Translations under genes and position numbers: made by a program
Notes under the pieces: model-generated
The model's database searches: none
Told to the model about the DNA's origin: nothing
Seen by the model: only the letters and a program-made list of their open reading frames with translations
Assembly (NCBI GenBank): GCA_028066245.1
Contig: JALCBR010000046.1
Location: 1 to 37,387, forward strand
DNA length: 37,387 nucleotides
Direction of reading: 5' to 3'
DNA from: Pirellulales bacterium
GTDB lineage: Bacteria; Planctomycetota; Planctomycetia; Pirellulales; S012-138
In this document: positions 8,922-17,453 of the stretch, in pieces
How positions within the stretch are numbered: the first letter of the stretch is position 1
How the letters are laid out: each line of letters starts with the position of its first letter

Positions 8922-9737
8922 TCATGATTTGAGCTTTCGAGCCCTCGTTGCGATGAAGGAATCGATGAACTCGGAAATAGGGTCTTCCTTTGTGGAGGCA
9001 TAGCTGTCCTCGAAGAAACCATCGATTAGAAATCCTGCGGCGATTTGCCCTCCAATTTGGTCCGCCAATGTATGGCTGTATTCCAGCGGCTCGTCACGAT
9101 CAGTGAACCTGCGAACCTCATCTGCGGACAGGTCACGGATATCCGCATAGGGAATCTTGTGGCGGACGTTGAGATCTCCTTGTTCTATTGCTTGCTCATC
9201 AAAGACGTAGCGAAAGGGATTGGAAAACCCGGCGAGCAGAACTCCCCCGGCACGTAGTACGCGAAAGGCTTCTCTCCAAACCGGCAGAATCTCGGGGCAA
9301 AACCCATTCGAGCATGGATGGAAAATCATGTCGAACGAAGCGTTTCTCAACTCGGACAGGTCGCGCATATCGGTCTGAACGGTGCGAACCGAAAGCCCTT
9401 CCCGCTCTGCGACCATACGGTCCTGGGCAAGTTGTTGCTTGGAACGATCGACAACCGTCACATTGGCACCGGCAGCAGCCAGAATGGGCGCCTGCTGACC
9501 TCCGCCGGAGGCCAGGCAGAGTACATCGATTCCCGGCAATTCTGGAAACCATTCACGTGGAACCGGTTTGGTTGGCGTGAGAACGATACTGAATTCGCCA
9601 TGCCGTGCCGCTGAGATGGTTTTCTCGTCCACGGGCAACGTCCACTTATTGCCGCGCGCCACCTGGGCATCCCAAGCTCGGGCGTTGTAGTCCACAATGT
9701 CACGTTCGGCAGGTGGTTCCATGGCTGGGACGGGCAA
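8922..9737 (-). CDS. Class I SAM-dependent methyltransferase
   Basis: A protein of 271 residues (266 if it starts at the second ATG, 9722). Motif I is VLCLASGGGQQAPILAAAG at about residues 72-90, followed by NVTVVDRS (the acidic residue for the ribose hydroxyls), a TDMRDLSEL segment and FDMIFHPCSNGFCPEI, where motif IV sits. GGVLLAGFSNP matches the post-motif-III strand. The substrate is unknown; this subgroup is usually annotated as a small-molecule methyltransferase. It is divergent from the asparaginase-like gene, with about 100 bases between their starts, and lies upstream of guaB without an obvious terminator. Confidence 0.85.
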   Translation of the reverse strand: MPVPAMEPPAERDIVDYNARAWDAQVARGNKWTLPVDEKTISAARHGEFSIVLTPTKPVPREWFPELPGIDVLCLASGGGQQAPILAAAGANVTVVDRSKQQLAQDRMVAEREGLSVRTVQTDMRDLSELRNASFDMIFHPCSNGFCPEILPVWREAFRVLRAGGVLLAGFSNPFRYVFDEQAIEQGDLNVRHKIPYADIRDLSADEVRRFTDRDEPLEYSHTLADQIGGQIAAGFLIDGFFEDSYASTKEDPISEFIDSFIATRARKLKS

Positions 9738-9837
9738 GGAGGATCAATCCGTTCGATGTACAGCAGGACATGGAAAGTCGTTCGCCGTTCGCGTATTCTG
9801 CCTGCAATTCAATCGAAGAGTTGAGAGAGTCACATCC

Positions 9838-10329
9838 ATGAAACTCAAAATCTTGACAACAGGCGGAACCATCGACAAGCAGTACTTTGACGCCACGTCA
9901 GAGTTTCAGGTTGGCGATGCGCAGATCGGCGAGTTCCTACGAGAAGCGAGTGTAACCTTTGACTACGAAGTCGAGTCGATCTGCCGCAAAGACAGCCTGG
10001 AGTTGACTGACGAGGATCGGGCTCGCGTGCGTGCAGCTATTGAGGATGATGCTCAGCATCAGCGGTTTTTGATCACCCATGGCACGGACACCATGGTTCA
10101 AACTGCGAAGCGGCTGTTGGATATTCCCGATAAGACCATCGTGCTGACAGGTTCCATGAATCCAGCCCGGTTGCGTGTGAGTGATGCTGGATTCAATATC
10201 GGGTTTGCCGTGGCCGCGTGTGAAACGTTGCCGCCTGGAGTCTACATCACGATGAACGGTCGGATCTTTGATCCTCACAACGTGCGCAAGAATCACCAGC
10301 AACATTGTTTTGAGACGATCAGCGGATAG
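9838..10329 (+). CDS. Half-length asparaginase-domain protein
   Basis: 163 residues from ATG 9838. An in-frame extension to 9697 runs antisense across the methyltransferase start and is not believable. The protein matches only the N-terminal domain of type I/II L-asparaginases: LTTGGTID at residues 7-14 holds the first catalytic Thr, and THGTDTM near residue 80 holds the second Thr-Asp pair. It continues through VLTGSM and stops at the end of that domain, whereas full enzymes have about 330 residues and a second domain that completes the substrate pocket in the tetramer. Short stand-alone versions exist in bacteria; whether this one hydrolyses asparagine is unknown. A weak GAGAG lies about ten bases upstream of the ATG. 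Confidence 0.82.
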   Translation: MKLKILTTGGTIDKQYFDATSEFQVGDAQIGEFLREASVTFDYEVESICRKDSLELTDEDRARVRAAIEDDAQHQRFLITHGTDTMVQTAKRLLDIPDKTIVLTGSMNPARLRVSDAGFNIGFAVAACETLPPGVYITMNGRIFDPHNVRKNHQQHCFETISG

Positions 10330-10436
10330 TGCATCACTCATCTATCTTTGGATGCAGCCGATGCTTGTTGTCAACAGGTCCGCATCAGGCATCCATCCTT
10401 CAGCTGCTGTCCAGACCTTTCGTCACCGCACAGGGC

Positions 10437-10488: not shown

Positions 10489-10561
10489 GCCCCCTTAGCT
10501 CAATTGGCAGAGCATCTGACTCTTAATCAGAGGGTTCATGGTTCGAGTCCATGAGGGGGCA
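10489..10561 (+). tRNA. tRNA-Lys (anticodon CTT)
   Basis: A 73-base cloverleaf. The acceptor stem GCCCCCT pairs with AGGGGGC (10554-10560), with discriminator A at 10561. The D arm contains AGCTCAATTGGCAGAGC. The anticodon loop CTCTTAA presents CTT, and the T arm is GGTTCGAGTCC. The 3' CCA is not encoded. A strong terminator hairpin follows. Confidence 0.97.
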
Positions 10562-10567
10562 CTTGAT

Positions 10568-10610
10568 AAGCCCTGCTGTAACAACGAGTTACGGCAGGGC
10601 TTCAGCTTTT
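10568..10610 (+). terminator. Rho-independent terminator after tRNA-Lys
   Basis: AAGCCCTGC and GTTAC halves pair with GTTACGGCAGGGCTT around the loop AACGA, giving a stem of about 14 bp with one mismatch, followed by CAG and a short T run at 10607-10611. Confidence 0.8.
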
Positions 10611-10845: not shown

Positions 10846-10874
10846 TTGACTGCGCAGATTTCTTGAGGTATGCT
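10846..10874 (+). promoter_or_regulatory. Sigma70-type promoter of the ilv leader and operon
   Basis: TTGACT (10846-10851) and TATGCT (10869-10874) are separated by exactly 17 bases, each one or two bases from consensus. Initiation would fall near 10881, only about five bases before the leader-peptide ATG at 10886, so the leader would be translated from an almost leaderless transcript. Confidence 0.75.
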
Positions 10875-10885
10875 CTCTCATTCAT

Positions 10886-11035
10886 ATGAACTCGATGTCG
10901 CACAACTTGGGCTTCGCTCCGCCGCACGGTGTGTTATCAACCGTCAGCGCTGCTGCGCTTGCTCCAATTCAGTCTCTTCTCGCCCTGATTATTATTCTAA
11001 TCGTCGCTCTTATTCCAGGAGCGTGCGGGAGCTGA
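10886..11035 (+). CDS. ilvL: ilv operon leader peptide
   Basis: A 49-codon open frame beginning MNSMSHNLGF and ending PGACGS, followed by TGA at 11033-11035. Codons 31-43 read LLALIIILIVALI: 11 of 13 are Leu, Ile or Val, the end products of the operon that follows. This is the expected composition of an attenuator control peptide, although 49 residues is longer than the 32 of enterobacterial IlvL. No good Shine-Dalgarno is present because the predicted transcript starts about five bases upstream; ATG 10895 (M4) is an alternative start in the same frame. The stop codon lies inside the antiterminator 5' arm (11023-11034), so a ribosome that finishes the peptide would mask that arm. The symbol is by analogy of position and logic, not homology. 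Confidence 0.8.
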   Translation: MNSMSHNLGFAPPHGVLSTVSAAALAPIQSLLALIIILIVALIPGACGS

Positions 11036-11073
11036 GCGTCACTCGAAACAACGAAACTGACAGCGGCCCGCAC
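11023..11073 (+). promoter_or_regulatory. Antiterminator hairpin of the ilv attenuator
   Basis: GTGCGGG (11023-11029) pairs with CCCGCAC (11067-11073), and GCTG (11031-11034) pairs with CAGC (11061-11064), leaving a one-by-two internal loop. The 3' arm is the 5' arm of the terminator at 11062-11091, so the two structures exclude each other. A ribosome stalled at the Ile/Leu run, starting near 10988, leaves the 5' arm free; one at the stop codon covers it. Confidence 0.72.
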
Positions 11074-11098
11074 ACTCAAGTGCGGGCCGCTTTTTTTT
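11062..11098 (+). terminator. Attenuator terminator before ilvD
   Basis: AGCGGCCCGCAC (11062-11073) and GTGCGGGCCGCT (11080-11091) form a perfect 12-bp GC-rich stem with a six-base loop (ACTCAA), followed by eight T residues at 11091-11098. It ends about 20 bases before the ilvD start, between promoter and first structural gene, the position expected of an attenuator. Confidence 0.92.
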
Positions 11099-11117
11099 GG
11101 CTAGGGAAATGAATTCC

Positions 11118-12770
11118 ATGCAATCAGATGCGATCAAGCTCGGCCCTCAGCGTGCTCCGGCGCGGGCGATGCTGCGCGCGACGGGGCTGACCGATGACGA
11201 CTTCCAGAAGCCGTTTGTTGCGGTGGCTAATACATGGACGGAAGTCACGCCCTGCAACATGCACCTCCGCGAACTGGCCGAACATGTCAAACGCGGCATC
11301 CGCGCTGCCGGCGGTGTCCCGATCGAGTTTAACACAATCGTCGTCACCGATGGCATTGCCATGGGGACTGATGGGATGCGTTGCTCGCTTGTCAGTCGCG
11401 AAACGATCGCTGACTCCATCGAACTGGCCGTTCGTGGACACAGCTTTGACGCCGTCGTGGCTATCTCCGGATGTGACAAGACTGTTGCCGGCACGGTTCA
11501 AGCTCTGGCACGGCTCGATTTACCCTCGCTGATGATCTACGGCGGTTCAATCGAGCCTGGCCGTTTCGACGGCCGCGACGTGACGATTCAAGATGTGTTT
11601 GAAGCCGTCGGTGGCCACGCGCGAGGCAACATCAATGATGAAGAACTGCGGGGCATCGAATGCGCCGCCTGTCCGACCGCTGGGGCATGTGGTGGTCAGT
11701 TCACGGCCAACACCATGTCAACGGCCACAGCAGCGCTGGGAATTTCTCCGATGTCCAACGCCCTGCCGGCCACAAGCGACGAGCGGAACGAAGCAGCTTA
11801 TGATGCCGGGCAAATGGTAATGAAGCTTGTCGCTGACAACGTCACGGCGCGAAGAATCATCACTCGTCCTGCCTTGGAGAATGCGTTCGCCTCGGTGATT
11901 CTCACCGGAGGTTCAACCAATGCCGTACTGCACTTGATGGCCATCGCACGCGAAGCCGGCGCAGATTTCAGTTTGGACGACATGGAATCCATCAGCCGGC
12001 GCTGTCCTGTTCTAGCAGACCTCAAGCCAACGGGTCGATACACGGCTGTTGACGTACATCGCGCTGGCGGAATCCGCCTGATTCTCCGGCGTTTGCATGA
12101 GTTAGGCCAACTGAATGATGAGCTCACCGTCAGTGGAGAGACAATCATCGCAGAAGCCTTGGCTGAGGAAGAAACGCCCGGCCAAGACGTCGTTCGCAAC
12201 GTTGAAAATCCCATCAAGCCGACTGGGCATCTGGCCGTCATGCACGGTTCAGTTTCTCCCGAAGGCGCAATCATGAAGCTGCCCGGCGATCACGTGACCA
12301 GCTTTGAAGGTCCGGCGCGTGTGTTTGATTGCGAAGAGGACTGCTTCCAAGCCGTACAGAAACAGCAGATTGAGCCGGGCGACGTCGTCGTTATTCGTTA
12401 TGAAGGTCCGCGGGGAGGGCCAGGCATGCGGGAAATGCTGGCCGTTACAGCGGCCATTGTTGGCGCCGGCTTGGGAGATTCCGTCGCCTTGATTACAGAT
12501 GGCCGCTTCAGCGGAGCGACGCACGGCCTGGTCATTGGACATGTCACCCCCGAGGCCGCGGTCGGCGGACCGATCGCGCTCATCGCTGACGGCGACATCA
12601 TTCGCATTGATGTGGCCAAACGCACGATCGACGTGGATGTCGATCTGGAAGCACGTCGCGATGTTTGGCAGCCGCCAGCACAGCAACACGTTACAGGCGT
12701 GCTGGCCCGCTACGCAGCGACTGTAACGTCGGCTTCCACCGGTGCCACAACCTGTCCTGTTCCGGAATGA
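11118..12770 (+). CDS. ilvD: Dihydroxy-acid dehydratase
   Basis: Converts 2,3-dihydroxy-isovalerate and 2,3-dihydroxy-3-methylvalerate to the 2-keto acids of the valine/leucine and isoleucine branches; an iron-sulfur enzyme of the cytoplasm. About 550 residues from ATG 11118, chosen because AGGGA lies ten bases upstream; ATG 11109 is too close to that site, though in frame. The three cluster cysteines are in [18 protein letters not shown] and [16 protein letters not shown], and the C-terminal [16 protein letters not shown] motif is intact. It is the first structural gene after the attenuator; ilvC follows after 84 bases with no terminator between. Confidence 0.97.
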
Positions 12771-12854: not shown

Positions 12855-13865
12855 ATGGATAAATTTTTCACGGAAACTGACGCCAACAAAGAAGCCCTGC
12901 GGGATCGCCGCGTGGTTGTGCTTGGCTATGGGAGCCAAGGCCGAGGCCAGGCTCTCAACCTTCGCGATAGCGGCGTTGACGTCGCGGTCGGGCTTCGCTC
13001 TGGTGGAACAACCTGGGCTCAAGCCGAAGGCGAAGGCTGGGAACCAGTTCCGGTCGAGACGGCAGTCGAAGGCGCTGATGTGGTGTGCCTGCTTGTGCCA
13101 GATATGGACCAGCCGGAACTTTACCAACAGCACGTTGCGCCGCACTTGAAACCGGGCGCGGCGGTCGTTTTTGCTCACGGCTTTAACATCCACTACGACG
13201 CGATCGCGCCTGCGGACAATGTCGACGTGATCATGGTTGCTCCCAAGGGGCCCGGCGCCTTGGTTCGTGAGCAGTTTGAGCAAGGCCGCGGCGTTCCTTG
13301 TCTGTTCGCTGTCCATCAAGACGCGACAGGCTCCGCAGCAGAACTCGCGCTTGCCTACGCGGATGCGATCGGCGGAACCAGAGCCGGCGTCATGCAAACC
13401 ACGTTTCGCGAAGAGACAGAGACCGATTTGTTTGGCGAGCAGGCGGTCCTTTGCGGCGGCGCCACAGAACTAGTCTGTGCCGGTTGGGAGACGCTGGTGG
13501 AGGCCGGCTATGATCCGCAACTGGCCTACTTTGAGTGTCTGCACGAACTCAAGTTGATTGTTGATTTGCTGTATGAAGGCGGACTCGCCCGAATGCATAA
13601 GTTTGTTAGTGACACTGCCAAATATGGCGATCTTTCTCGTGGCAAGCGAGTCATTGATGAGCAAACACGCCAGCGGATGAAAGAAATTCTAGCGGAGATT
13701 CAGGACGGTCGTTTTGCCAAAGAGTGGCGTGAAGAACACGCCACAGGGTCAAAGAATTACCACGCCATGCTGCAGGCTGATTTAGATCACCCCATTGAAC
13801 AAGTCGGGCAGCAATTGCGATCCCGCTTTGCCTGGATCAGGCAAGAGGAAGGGGCAACGGCATGA
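12855..13865 (+). CDS. ilvC: Ketol-acid reductoisomerase
   Basis: Rearranges and reduces 2-acetolactate or 2-aceto-2-hydroxybutyrate to the dihydroxy acids, using NAD(P)H and Mg. At 336 residues it is a short class I enzyme. The Rossmann motif [16 protein letters not shown] is at about residues 20-35, followed by the cofactor loop [22 protein letters not shown] carries the conserved His. [10 protein letters not shown] supplies the metal-binding Asp and Glu, and [18 protein letters not shown] supplies the other two acidic ligands. AGGAAC lies upstream of the ATG. The stop overlaps the ATG of ilvB by four bases (ATGA, 13862-13865), indicating translational coupling. Confidence 0.97.
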
Positions 13866-15529
13866 ATGGCGCTCAACTCCTGGTGAGCTGTCTGGAACGT
13901 GAGGGCGTGGAAGAAGTCTGGGGATATCCCGGCGGTGCGATCATGCCTGTCTATGACGCACTGCTGGGCTCTGGCATCAAGCATTATCTCACGCGGCACG
14001 AACAAGGTGCGGCCTTTGCTGCGCAGGGCTTTGCGCGTTCCACGGGGCGCGTGGGCGTATGCATGGCAACTTCCGGCCCTGGTGCAACAAATCTCGTCAC
14101 CGGCATCGCAGATGCGCACTTGGATTCGATTCCTCTGGTGGCGATCACTGGACAAGTTCCCCGGCCTTTGATGGGAACTGACGCTTTCCAGGAAGTGGAT
14201 ATCTTTGGGATTTCGCTCCCCATTGTGAAACACAGTTACCTGGTGGAAGACGTTGACGATATTCCCGCCATCGTCCACGAAGCGTTTGAACTTGCTCAGC
14301 AAGGGCGCCCTGGGCCGGTGCTTATTGATTTCCCCAAGGATGTCTCTCTGGCAAAAGCCCAAGCTCGCCCGCTGGCAAAGTCAGTTGAACAAAGCCGCCC
14401 GTCGACGCCGGAGGCCGTTTCGCTTGCTCGAGCGCGGGAGTTGCTCCGTGAAGCTAAGCAGCCGATCGTGTATGCCGGCGGTGGCGTTCCCAAGGCCGGT
14501 GCCGTGGAAGCGCTGCGGGATTTTGTCCACGTGACCAAAATCCCGGTTGTTCACACGCTGCAAGGGCTGGGTTCCATCCCAGGTGATCATGAGTTGTTCC
14601 TGGGCATGTTGGGAATGCACGGAACCAAAGCTGCTAACCGCGCCGTGCAAGAGTGCGACCTGTTAGTTGCCGTCGGGGTTCGGTTTGATGATCGGGCCAC
14701 TGGTAAACTGGCAGAGTTCGCTCCCAACGCGTCCGTGATTCACATGGACATTGATCCCGCCGAGCTGAGCAAATTGCGGGAAGCCAATGTTGCTCTCCGC
14801 GGTGACATCGTCAATGCACTTGGCGCGCTGACCGTTCCGCTTGAGATCGATCCCTGGCGCAACTGCTGCTTGGAGTACAAACGCGATGGAGTGTTCAACT
14901 ATGACGCGCCATTCGAAGTGATCTACGCTCCGAAATTGCTCCATGACCTGGCCCAGGCAGCCTCTGAAGACACCTATATCTGCTGCGATGTGGGTCAGCA
15001 CCAGATGTGGGTTGCGCAGCATTATTCGTTCTCACACCCGTCGCGGCATCTCACCAGCGGTGGTCTGGGAACAATGGGATTCGGGCTTCCGGCCGCGATT
15101 GGCGTGCAATGCGCGCATCCAGATGCGACTGTGATCAACGTTTCTGGCGATGGCTCGATCATGATGAATATTCAGGAGTTGGCCACAATTCGCCGGTACA
15201 ACCTGCCTGTTAAAGTGCTGCTGTTTGACAATTCGGCCTTGGGAATGGTTCGCCAATGGCAAGAGCTGTTCTTTCACAACCGTGAGAGCGAAGTCGATCT
15301 GAGTGACAACCCGGATTTCCGCACGGTTGCTGAAGCGTTTGGAATACCGGCTCGGCATGTTTCCCGCGCAGATGAAACCGAAGAGGCGATTCACATGTTG
15401 TGTCATGAGCCAGGACCGTTATTCATCCATGCGCACATTGATCGCCGAGCTAACGTCTGGCCGCTTGTTCCACCCAATGCGAACAACGGACAGATGATGC
15501 ATGAGCCAGCGCCGGCACAAGCCAAATGA
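13862..15529 (+). CDS. ilvB: Acetolactate synthase, large catalytic subunit
   Basis: A thiamine-diphosphate enzyme that condenses two pyruvates, or pyruvate and 2-ketobutyrate, the first common step of Val/Leu/Ile synthesis. It has 555 residues in three domains: the N-terminal pyrimidine-binding domain with [14 protein letters not shown] and the catalytic Glu in [15 protein letters not shown]; the central domain with FDDRATGK; and the C-terminal domain with the ThDP motif [21 protein letters not shown] and [16 protein letters not shown]. Length and partner resemble the IlvG/IlvM pair as much as IlvB/IlvN, so ilvG would be an equally fair name. It overlaps ilvC by four bases and is followed after 69 bases by the ACT subunit. 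Confidence 0.95.
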
Positions 15530-15598
15530 AGGGCTTACTCAGTGCAATTAACCTCAGCGCAGACAACTTCTTCACCAATTGAAAAACGGACACCGAGA

Positions 15599-15850
15599 AT
15601 GAGCAGTGAATTTGATGTGGAGCTTTCTCCCGTTCCCGGCGCTCTACAGCGTTTGCTGGGCGTTGTACGGCGTCGGGGTTTTACAATCCTTTCGCTCTCC
15701 GCGGTTCGTGACGATACAGGGGATGGGTACCGGGTGGCCATTACTGTGTCCGGTGCGCGTCGTGCTTTGACACTTCGCAACCATCTGGCCAATCTGGTCG
15801 ATGTTCGTTCCGTCAACCTTCTGTCGTGCACTCAAGCTTCCTGTGCCTGA
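15599..15850 (+). CDS. ilvM: ACT-domain small subunit of acetolactate synthase (IlvM-like)
   Basis: 83 residues from ATG 15599, comprising one ACT domain: FDVELSPVPGALQRLLGVVRR (with the PGAL ligand-turn), a second strand FTILSLSAVRD, and a C-terminal strand ending VNLLSCTQ. At 83 residues it is the size of enterobacterial IlvM (87) and about half of IlvH/IlvN-type subunits of other phyla, lacking their second domain. In AHAS II the IlvM subunit activates the large subunit without valine inhibition; that this holds here is inference. The gene sits directly between ilvB and ilvA. A GTG in the ilvA frame at 15843 would overlap its stop by eight bases. Confidence 0.83.
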   Translation: MSSEFDVELSPVPGALQRLLGVVRRRGFTILSLSAVRDDTGDGYRVAITVSGARRALTLRNHLANLVDVRSVNLLSCTQASCA

Positions 15851-15893
15851 GTCGCTGGAATCCACCCAAGAGGAAACTCGCACCCAATTGAAA

Positions 15894-17453
15894 ATGTCAA
15901 CTGCGAGCCAATGTGACAGCCGGAGCCAAATTCATGCGGCGATGGACGCCGCGCGGCTTGTGCTGCGCGACGTGGACACCTTGGCTCCGCTCCAGCTTTT
16001 GAATTTTCGATGCGGACCGGTTTGGGTGAAGCGAGAAGATCTCTCGCAAATCCGATCATTCAAATGGCGAGGGGCGTATTTTCGCATGCACGGATTGTGG
16101 CGTGATGGCGTCCGTCGTGTCGTGGCGGCCTCGGCCGGAAATCACGCGCAAGGAGTTGCGCGGGCCGCGCGAAAATTGAACATGAACGCAACAGTGTTCA
16201 TGCCGCAATCCACGCCAGCGATCAAGCAGGCCCAGGTTCGACAACTGGGGGGAGACCATGTCGACGTTGTCTTATCGGGTGACTCATTTGCCACCACAGC
16301 GCGTGCAGCAGCGAGTGACGCCGCCAAGCGGGATCTGCACGTGGTAGATCCGTTTGACCACTCCGACATTATCGCCGGACAGGCAACCATCGGCTTTGAG
16401 ATGCTGGAACAATCCAGCGAGTTCGACGCCCTCTATCTACCAATTGGCGGCGGAGGGCTAGCGGCTGGCGTCGCCTGCGCCATTAAGCGTGCTGCGCCGC
16501 GGATTCGAGTGATCGGAGTTGAAGTTGTCGATCAAGATTCGATGTCGAGGTCAATCCGCGCGGGAAAGCTTGTGACGCTGCCGGAGGTGAGCCGGTTTTG
16601 TGATGGAACGGCCGTCAGCCAGCCAGGCAAACTGACGTTTGAGCTGTGCCGAGATCTGCTCGATCAAACAATCATCGTTACAGAGGATGAGGTCTGTGCC
16701 GCCATCCAAACTTTGTGGGAGGCGGATCGGATTATCCCTGAGCCATCTGGCGCGGTCGGGTTGGCGGGAGTTTTACAGGCCGCGCACAATGGTTCTCCAG
16801 GACGCCCGGCCACCATCATTACCGGCGCCAACATGGATTTCACAACGCTCGAACGCATCGCGCAGCGGGCAGGAATTGGGCGAAGAACTCGCAAGTACTA
16901 CCGGTTCCGGATTGAGGAGCGCGCGGGAGCATTGCTGTCCGTGCTCGACGGCTTGAAAGATCGGGCGAATATCGTGGAGTTTCAATATGGCAAAGTGGAT
17001 CAGCACAGAGCATGTCCGGTGATTGGGTTTGAGTGTCTGGGTACTGATGAGTGCAGTGACCTGCACGACGCCGTCTCACAGCTCCCGGTTTCCGCTGATG
17101 ATATCACCGGCACGGAGATGGTTGATTTCCGCATGATTCCATTCGAACGCCGGCTTTGCCATGATCCACTCTTCGCGCGGATCGATTTTGCGGACCGGCC
17201 CGGCGCGCTGCATTCGTTGTTACGAGAAATCGGCTCCACCGCCAACATCTGCTACTTCAACTATCATTCCAGCGGTGAACTTTCCGGTCGCGCGTTGATG
17301 GCCTTTGAGTCGACCGTTAACCGATGGCAGGAAAAGTTAGCCGAACGCGTCGGGCGGCTTGAGTTCACAATGTCCATCGTCCCCGAGGCCGGCGAATGGA
17401 CGAGCCTCGTCACTTCTTCGACGGAACTCGGCGCCGAGAATATCAGCACCTAA
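15894..17453 (+). CDS. ilvA: Threonine ammonia-lyase, biosynthetic
   Basis: A PLP enzyme deaminating threonine to 2-ketobutyrate, the entry to isoleucine. It has 519 residues from ATG 15894; GTG 15843 would add 17 residues and overlap ilvM. The PLP lysine is in RSFKWRGAYF, SAGNHAQGVA and the phosphate loop GGGGLAAGVA follow, and EPSGAVGLAG ends the catalytic domain (about residues 1-330). Two ACT-like regulatory segments follow (EERAGALLSVLDGLKDR and FADRPGALHSLLREIG), so allosteric control by isoleucine and valine is likely. It is the last gene of the operon; the next gene is convergent, 81 bases away, and I see no strong terminator between them. Confidence 0.95.
   Translation: MSTASQCDSRSQIHAAMDAARLVLRDVDTLAPLQLLNFRCGPVWVKREDLSQIRSFKWRGAYFRMHGLWRDGVRRVVAASAGNHAQGVARAARKLNMNATVFMPQSTPAIKQAQVRQLGGDHVDVVLSGDSFATTARAAASDAAKRDLHVVDPFDHSDIIAGQATIGFEMLEQSSEFDALYLPIGGGGLAAGVACAIKRAAPRIRVIGVEVVDQDSMSRSIRAGKLVTLPEVSRFCDGTAVSQPGKLTFELCRDLLDQTIIVTEDEVCAAIQTLWEADRIIPEPSGAVGLAGVLQAAHNGSPGRPATIITGANMDFTTLERIAQRAGIGRRTRKYYRFRIEERAGALLSVLDGLKDRANIVEFQYGKVDQHRACPVIGFECLGTDECSDLHDAVSQLPVSADDITGTEMVDFRMIPFERRLCHDPLFARIDFADRPGALHSLLREIGSTANICYFNYHSSGELSGRALMAFESTVNRWQEKLAERVGRLEFTMSIVPEAGEWTSLVTSSTELGAENIST

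Follow-up and report, generated by a model that had tools for sequence, protein, structure and literature searches.

In the group of AHAS-II operons, which carry ilvG and ilvM, transcription attenuators are the norm. The ilvGMEDA operon of E. coli and other enterobacteria is preceded by a leader (IlvL) rich in Leu, Ile and Val (ILV) codons, with an antiterminator arm just past the control codons and a GC-rich terminator before the first gene. The ilvBNC operon of Corynebacterium glutamicum has a 15-aa leader peptide of branched-chain amino acids (BCAA), translated without a ribosome binding site, as well as competing terminator and antiterminator structures (PMC11857589, PMC10272879); its transcription start site (TSS) lies one nucleotide from the leader start codon (PMC11857589). 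In ilvB1NC of Mycobacterium tuberculosis, the antiterminator is masked once the ribosome has reached the stop codon, and a stall at BCAA codons permits read-through (PMC13236596). The initial annotation of the locus described below regarded this kind of control as best known from Proteobacteria and Actinobacteria, which is incomplete: leader-peptide attenuators have been reported in Firmicutes too (PMC2965389, PMC5794164), and BCAA-rich upstream ORFs stand 5' of the AHAS gene in ilvB-OMG RNA motifs from "various bacterial phyla" (PMC10272879).

The initial annotation knew of no such attenuator in Planctomycetes, and no earlier report was found in the open-access literature searched here, the coverage of which is incomplete. 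The window, i.e. the whole stretch of DNA analysed, comprises 37,387 nucleotides of a Pirellulales bacterium (assembly GCA_028066245.1, contig JALCBR010000046.1). Sequence and folding computations indicate that a classical ribosome-mediated transcription attenuator very probably controls a horizontally acquired ilvD-ilvC-ilvG-ilvM-ilvA operon in it. The features involved are the following:

10846..10874, plus strand: sigma-70-like promoter, TTGACT-17-TATGCT, with the top promoter score of the 80 nt upstream
10886..11035, plus strand: leader peptide ORF (ATG 10886, TGA 11035), 49 codons plus TGA
10976..11014, plus strand: control codons 31-43, CTT CTC GCC CTG ATT ATT ATT CTA ATC GTC GCT CTT ATT
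11023..11034, plus strand: antiterminator 5' arm (GTGCGGGAGCTG); overlaps the last codons of the leader ORF
11061..11073, plus strand: antiterminator 3' arm CAGCGGCCCGCAC, mostly the same as the terminator 5' arm
11062..11091, plus strand: intrinsic terminator, a hairpin of 12 perfect bp with a 6-nt loop (-26.9 kcal/mol)
11091..11098, plus strand: T8 tract of the terminator, read directly from the sequence
11118..12770, plus strand: ilvD, dihydroxy-acid dehydratase (NF002068 and TIGR00110 above cut-off)
12855..13865, plus strand: ilvC, class I ketol-acid reductoisomerase
13862..15529, plus strand: ilvG, large subunit of an acetolactate synthase of AHAS-II type (NF006524: 882.7 bits, cut-off 738)
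15542..15850, plus strand: ilvM-like AHAS small subunit (ACT_5 domain; start uncertain, perhaps the ATG near 15599)
15801..17453, plus strand: ilvA, threonine ammonia-lyase carrying an ACT region at its C-terminus (precise start uncertain)

Assignment to the AHAS-II (IlvGM) type is based on the NF006524 match above cut-off, the ACT_5 ORF behind ilvG and tree placement. The most likely start of ilvD is the ATG at 11118, preferred with AGGGA at 11103-11107, the alternative being the ATG at 11109; it lies 82 nt from the leader stop and 19 nt from the end of the U tract. At the thresholds used, this operon holds the sole ilvD and ilvG matches of a 97.5%-complete genome. The description of the operon as planctomycete-type, given in the initial annotation, has to be dropped: the gene order is ilvD-C-G-M-A with an AHAS-II-type IlvG, and the operon's closest grouping is with Pseudomonadota, together with a small number of scattered lineages of planctomycetes.

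The promoter, the 49-codon leader with its 11 ILV codons in 13, the antiterminator and the 12-bp terminator with eight T had all been described in the initial annotation, and each was found again in the sequence at the same position. The promoter matches at 9/12, where shuffles of the 700-bp region are expected to give 0.5 such sites. The TSS would lie near 10881, some 5 nt 5' of the leader ATG, so that the leader ORF is probably carried on a (nearly) leaderless mRNA. The leader, which we take to be translated, encodes MNSMSHNLGFAPPHGVLSTVSAAALAPIQSLLALIIILIVALIPGACGS. Its codons 31-43 read L L A L I I I L I V A L I (LLALIIILIVALI); given the local ILV frequency of 0.21, a single fixed stretch of 13 codons would hold 11 ILV codons with a binomial probability of ~2e-6, and the run includes the Leu codon CTA, which makes up 4% of local Leu codons.

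Further upstream, a 15-bp hairpin resembling an intrinsic terminator (10568-10602) stands directly 3' of tRNA-Lys (10489-10562), between the tRNA transcript and the ilv promoter, and keeps the two apart. The ORF at 9697-10341 (210 aa) matches the N-terminal half of L-asparaginase only, with 60 bits against a cut-off of 314, and is perhaps truncated or decayed.

At the RNA level two exclusive pairings can be drawn. The terminator is AGCGGCCCGCAC-ACTCAA-GTGCGGGCCGCT, 12 perfect bp followed by eight T; the start of its 3' arm recurs in the leader as the arm GTGCGGG. The antiterminator is GTGCGGG(A)GCTG x CAGC(GG)CCCGCAC, with 11 bp and -21.7 kcal/mol when computed as a duplex. The antiterminator arm performed better than shuffled arms (p = 0.013). 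When the ribosome was set at each codon in turn, with RNA made up to 11080, the probability of the antiterminator was 0.99 with the A-site codon at 41 or earlier, 0.81 at 42, 0.17 at 43 and 0 from 44 onwards. The switch point thus falls at codons 42-43, and the control-codon run thus matches the region where a stall of the ribosome would keep the arm unpaired and available. With the ribosome left out, the 5' leader base-pairs with the antiterminator arm and the probability was accordingly 0.15. For the full-length RNA at equilibrium the terminator always wins; the choice between the two structures therefore has to be a kinetic one, which is also the case for classical attenuators. Three features of a classical attenuator, an ILV-rich leader ORF, a terminator before the first gene and an exclusive antiterminator that in folding depends on ribosome position, are present in the window. 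The antiterminator 5' arm ends within the leader stop codon (11033-11035), and the codon-resolved folding supports the earlier proposal of switching between stall and completion.

The proposed sequence of events is as follows. Transcription would begin a few nt 5' of the leader ATG, the leader being translated as RNA polymerase advances. Scarcity of charged Leu, Ile or Val tRNA would stall the ribosome within codons 31-43, so that the arm 11023-11034 stays free and pairs with 11061-11073 ahead of the synthesis of the terminator 3' arm, allowing read-through into ilvD. With plentiful charged tRNAs, the ribosome would reach the stop codon and cover the arm, and the 12-bp hairpin with its U8 would terminate transcription. 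If no ribosome is present, the upstream leader would fold onto the arm, giving termination by default. Of the three amino acids, Ile and Leu would matter most and Val least.

Among the closest known systems are those of Pseudomonadota. E. coli ilvGMEDA shows equal computed switch behaviour, and enterobacterial IlvG is 57-60% identical to that of the window; the window differs in having ilvD first, ilvC included and no ilvE, in a leader that cannot be aligned with the enterobacterial one, in the near absence of the 5' untranslated region present in the E. coli leader mRNA, and in an ilvD that belongs to a different branch of the IlvD tree. Pseudomonadota with ilvC-G-M(-A) operons (G485, G232, G291, G295, G503, G594 and Oceanicaulis G197) share the order ilvC-ilvG-ilvM, a leader and terminator upstream, and IlvG 58-62% identical to the window's, although their leader precedes ilvC and ilvD is located elsewhere. 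In the pseudomonad-phylum genome G355, where ilvD does stand before ilvC-G-M, no leader was found ahead of ilvD. The actinobacterial-type system of C. glutamicum differs from the window in its shorter leader, its ilvB-N-C operon of AHAS-III/actinobacterial type and its distinct structure, and that of M. tuberculosis is unrelated in operon type and sequence. The ilvB-OMG motif precedes ilvB, not ilvD, and gave no Rfam match in the window at E <= 10.

The search for further copies was carried out with IlvG in 392 genomes of the phylum, a class-level search adding one genome. Six other genomes encode an IlvG 58-64% identical to that of the window, plus one at 53%, and the loci fetched from all these planctomycetes have the gene order ilvD-ilvC-ilvG-ilvM. 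At two loci (L199, L200) the sequence ends at or just upstream of the ilvD start, and these were left out of the leader count; in L200 (f97), whose sequence ends 55 nt before ilvD, a hairpin without U tract is found there. All the others (L198, L201, L202, L203, L204, L235) possess a hairpin ahead of ilvD and an ILV-rich leader ORF whose end adjoins a GC-rich arm, so that leader and hairpin occur in 7/7 planctomycete ilvDCGM operons with intact upstream DNA, window included. The leader peptides are very different in sequence (MSPNLTSLALVLGLTLSLLVIITGRCGPP, MNFAVLLVNVLVLIAWPSCQGSGPLT and one ending in GLDISLVLIISSPEGMR, each followed by the stop), with ILV bias and geometry kept. The conservation check proposed in the initial annotation was passed, with distant planctomycetes that have the operon in place of close relatives, which lack it. 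A DNA search with the leader in the 40 nearest relatives gave no match beyond the window itself, no comparable leader and terminator was present at the IlvD and IlvB loci searched in the order and family, and an IlvD scan across genome contigs, returning mainly Alphaproteobacteria and Acidobacteria, revealed no comparable leader before ilvD.

The antiterminator arms vary between copies (GTGCGGG, GAGGTGCGGG, GGGATGCGG, AGCGGGC) along with the matching terminator. In five of the first six copies the arm was better than shuffles (p 0.005-0.016), the L204 arm, as cut, not beating shuffled arms. Support for covariation proper is weak: in an arm-swap permutation among species, 78/720 arrangements were as good (not significant), all arms being GC-rich. 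Folding of L201, L203, L204 and L235 showed that the antiterminator is lost where the ILV run ends or close to that point, and the same was seen in Pseudomonadota leaders, one of them identical to E. coli IlvL. The antiterminator computed for L198 and L202, the f29 pair, is weak, with P not above ~0.6, and the U tract of L204 is poor (CGCGCTTT); attenuator function is less sure in these three. In L198 and L202 the antiterminator arm is enclosed by a strong hairpin that the leader end makes on its own (GTCAGGGG...CCCCTGAC), and GGCCGTCG/CGACGGCC form another complementary pair; the f29 version may use different alternative hairpins.

The hairpin at 11062-11091 might be simply a constitutive terminator or insulator that stops upstream or leaky transcription, the ILV-rich ORF being coincidental or coding for a membrane peptide. 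Short hydrophobic ORFs are indeed not rare: in all fetched sequence (2.28 Mb, both strands), a scan for a short ORF with at least eight ILV in 12 codons near its end, a terminator at most 75 nt away and an antiterminator duplex of -12 kcal/mol or below yielded 102 ILV-rich short ORFs, of which 35 had the terminator and 15 all three elements. However, the full signature was seen solely before ilv operons (15/15); since the sequences were collected in a way that favours ilv neighbourhoods, the count speaks to the false-positive rate and not to genome-wide frequency. Furthermore, the promoter lies within the region, 5' of the leader, which places the terminator inside the operon's own transcript, and leader and hairpin are conserved despite such different peptides, making a mere insulator very unlikely. 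A structured riboswitch or T-box type sensor in place of a translated leader would suit the long GC-rich leader, whose 223-nt RNA folds with z = -3.9. Within the window, though, no Rfam leader or riboswitch family matched at the gathering threshold, and at E <= 10 there were weak sub-threshold matches only, of which the best one on the leader, by Thr_leader, fell on the terminator and reached 23.8 of 55 bits; what is conserved between copies is the ILV codons and the stop-codon geometry, not the upstream sequence. This is the least probable of the readings considered.

The leader could also act on translation, by occlusion of the ilvD start site or reinitiation, as proposed for leader genes near structural genes (PMC4833913). 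The same work reports Planctomycetes leader genes, with a spacing peak of 10-11 bp, and the distances given above from the leader stop and the U tract to ilvD count in its favour; the leader-to-ilvD spacing nevertheless exceeds the reinitiation range as defined there, and the U8 is perfect in the window, with U-rich tails in most copies, so that an effect on translation instead of transcription termination appears highly improbable. Ribosome-mediated Leu/Ile/Val attenuation, the reading advanced in the initial annotation, is well supported by what computation establishes: the sequence parts and their exclusive pairings, the codon-resolved switch point, the recurrence of the architecture in seven planctomycete copies, and Pseudomonadota operons with the same device. 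Termination would, on this attenuation model, take place at the hairpin.

With regard to the start of the leader mRNAs, in 6/7 planctomycete leaders the highest-scoring promoter among the 80 nt 5' of the leader ATG has a -10 box that stops 8-11 nt short of this codon, L201 being the exception (Fisher p ~5e-10, with start codons partly chosen by eye and copies partly related, amounting to about three independent lineages). This spacing puts the transcript start 0-5 nt before the ATG and hence points to leaderless leader mRNAs. In Pseudomonadota ilvCGM operons the -10 box ends 7-9 nt before the leader ATG in four of the leaders tested, enterobacterial ones being mostly otherwise. Leaderless leaders as a planctomycete speciality are ruled out by several of these Pseudomonadota leaders and by the published Corynebacterium case.

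As regards the origin of the operon, IlvG and IlvD of the window fall in the trees outside the clades (support 100) of the order relatives, within which those of a native operon would cluster. In the IlvG tree the window belongs to a clade (support 99) of Pseudomonadota IlvG and ilvDCGM planctomycetes, as sister to the f29 pair (support 98), and the native IlvB of its order forms a separate clade (support 100). The IlvD tree groups the sequences in the same way, again with f29 (support 100), Oceanicaulis and G355 falling inside; the Pseudomonadota grouped with the window in these trees carry such leaders. The family and order relatives searched have ordinary IlvD and IlvB, with 45-50% and 44-53% identity to the window, and ilvD-C-G-M-A with AHAS-II-type IlvG is missing from nearly all sampled members of the family, order and phylum. 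The tree groupings argue that the operon moved horizontally, within and across phyla, and that of the window is best read as acquired by transfer across classes or phyla. The operon, its flank and further contigs from this genome have tetranucleotide profiles that correlate at 0.91-0.92, other genomes reaching at most 0.81; the transfer is therefore old and the contig no contaminant, an explanation also ruled out by the sole ilvD and ilvG matches. Besides, DUF1559 (SBP_bac_10) gave 26 matches in the genome and 0 in 14 control genomes, supporting the planctomycete phylum.

Other ilv loci of the phylum deserve mention. Three order members (L084, L085, L086; G013, G115, G024) carry an IlvD of 53-55% identity that stands apart from the order's native IlvD and branches near Alphaproteobacteria or Chloroflexi/Actinobacteria; in these genomes, too, ilvD has been replaced or added. 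In front of a native-type ilvB there is a second attenuator-like leader, independent of the first, in L181 (G973:C23, ~3486-3260, minus strand), with promoter TTGACA-17-TACATT, leader MSRNLLLALAPITAAVTPVTVGLVLVRAAGGG and its stop, a strong terminator, a 12-bp antiterminator match (CCGGTGGCGGGT x ACCCGTCGCCGG) and a codon-resolved switch that works in folding; as a class-wide conserved feature it was rejected, being absent from the 29 other loci examined in the class, including a 78%-identical relative. In L187 and L193 (f67), GC-rich terminator-like hairpins lie ~64-73 nt before ilvB (e.g. CCCGGCCGCTTTCGGCCGGG + TTGTTTTT); a convincing ILV leader is absent upstream, and another regulatory element is possibly present.

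An attenuator contains its own sensor, formed by codons and RNA pairing, and needs just a coupled ribosome and polymerase; therefore it can travel with its operon without any regulator protein. We lean, by a small measure, towards the view that attenuation functions and is conserved in Planctomycetota, having passed from phylum to phylum as a self-contained unit of promoter, attenuator and operon that is run by leaderless leader peptides. The mechanism itself is known: what is new is the phylum, the linkage to a transferred operon and the implication for planctomycete transcription-translation coupling, classical attenuation being extended to a phylum for which no description was found. Since an attenuator responds only if transcription and translation are coupled, its function bears directly on this last point. 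Physical separation of the two processes was claimed for Gemmata obscuriglobus (2014) and has been contested (PMC6554331); attenuator function, if true, would demonstrate coupling of the two in the planctomycetes concerned, contrary to that claim.
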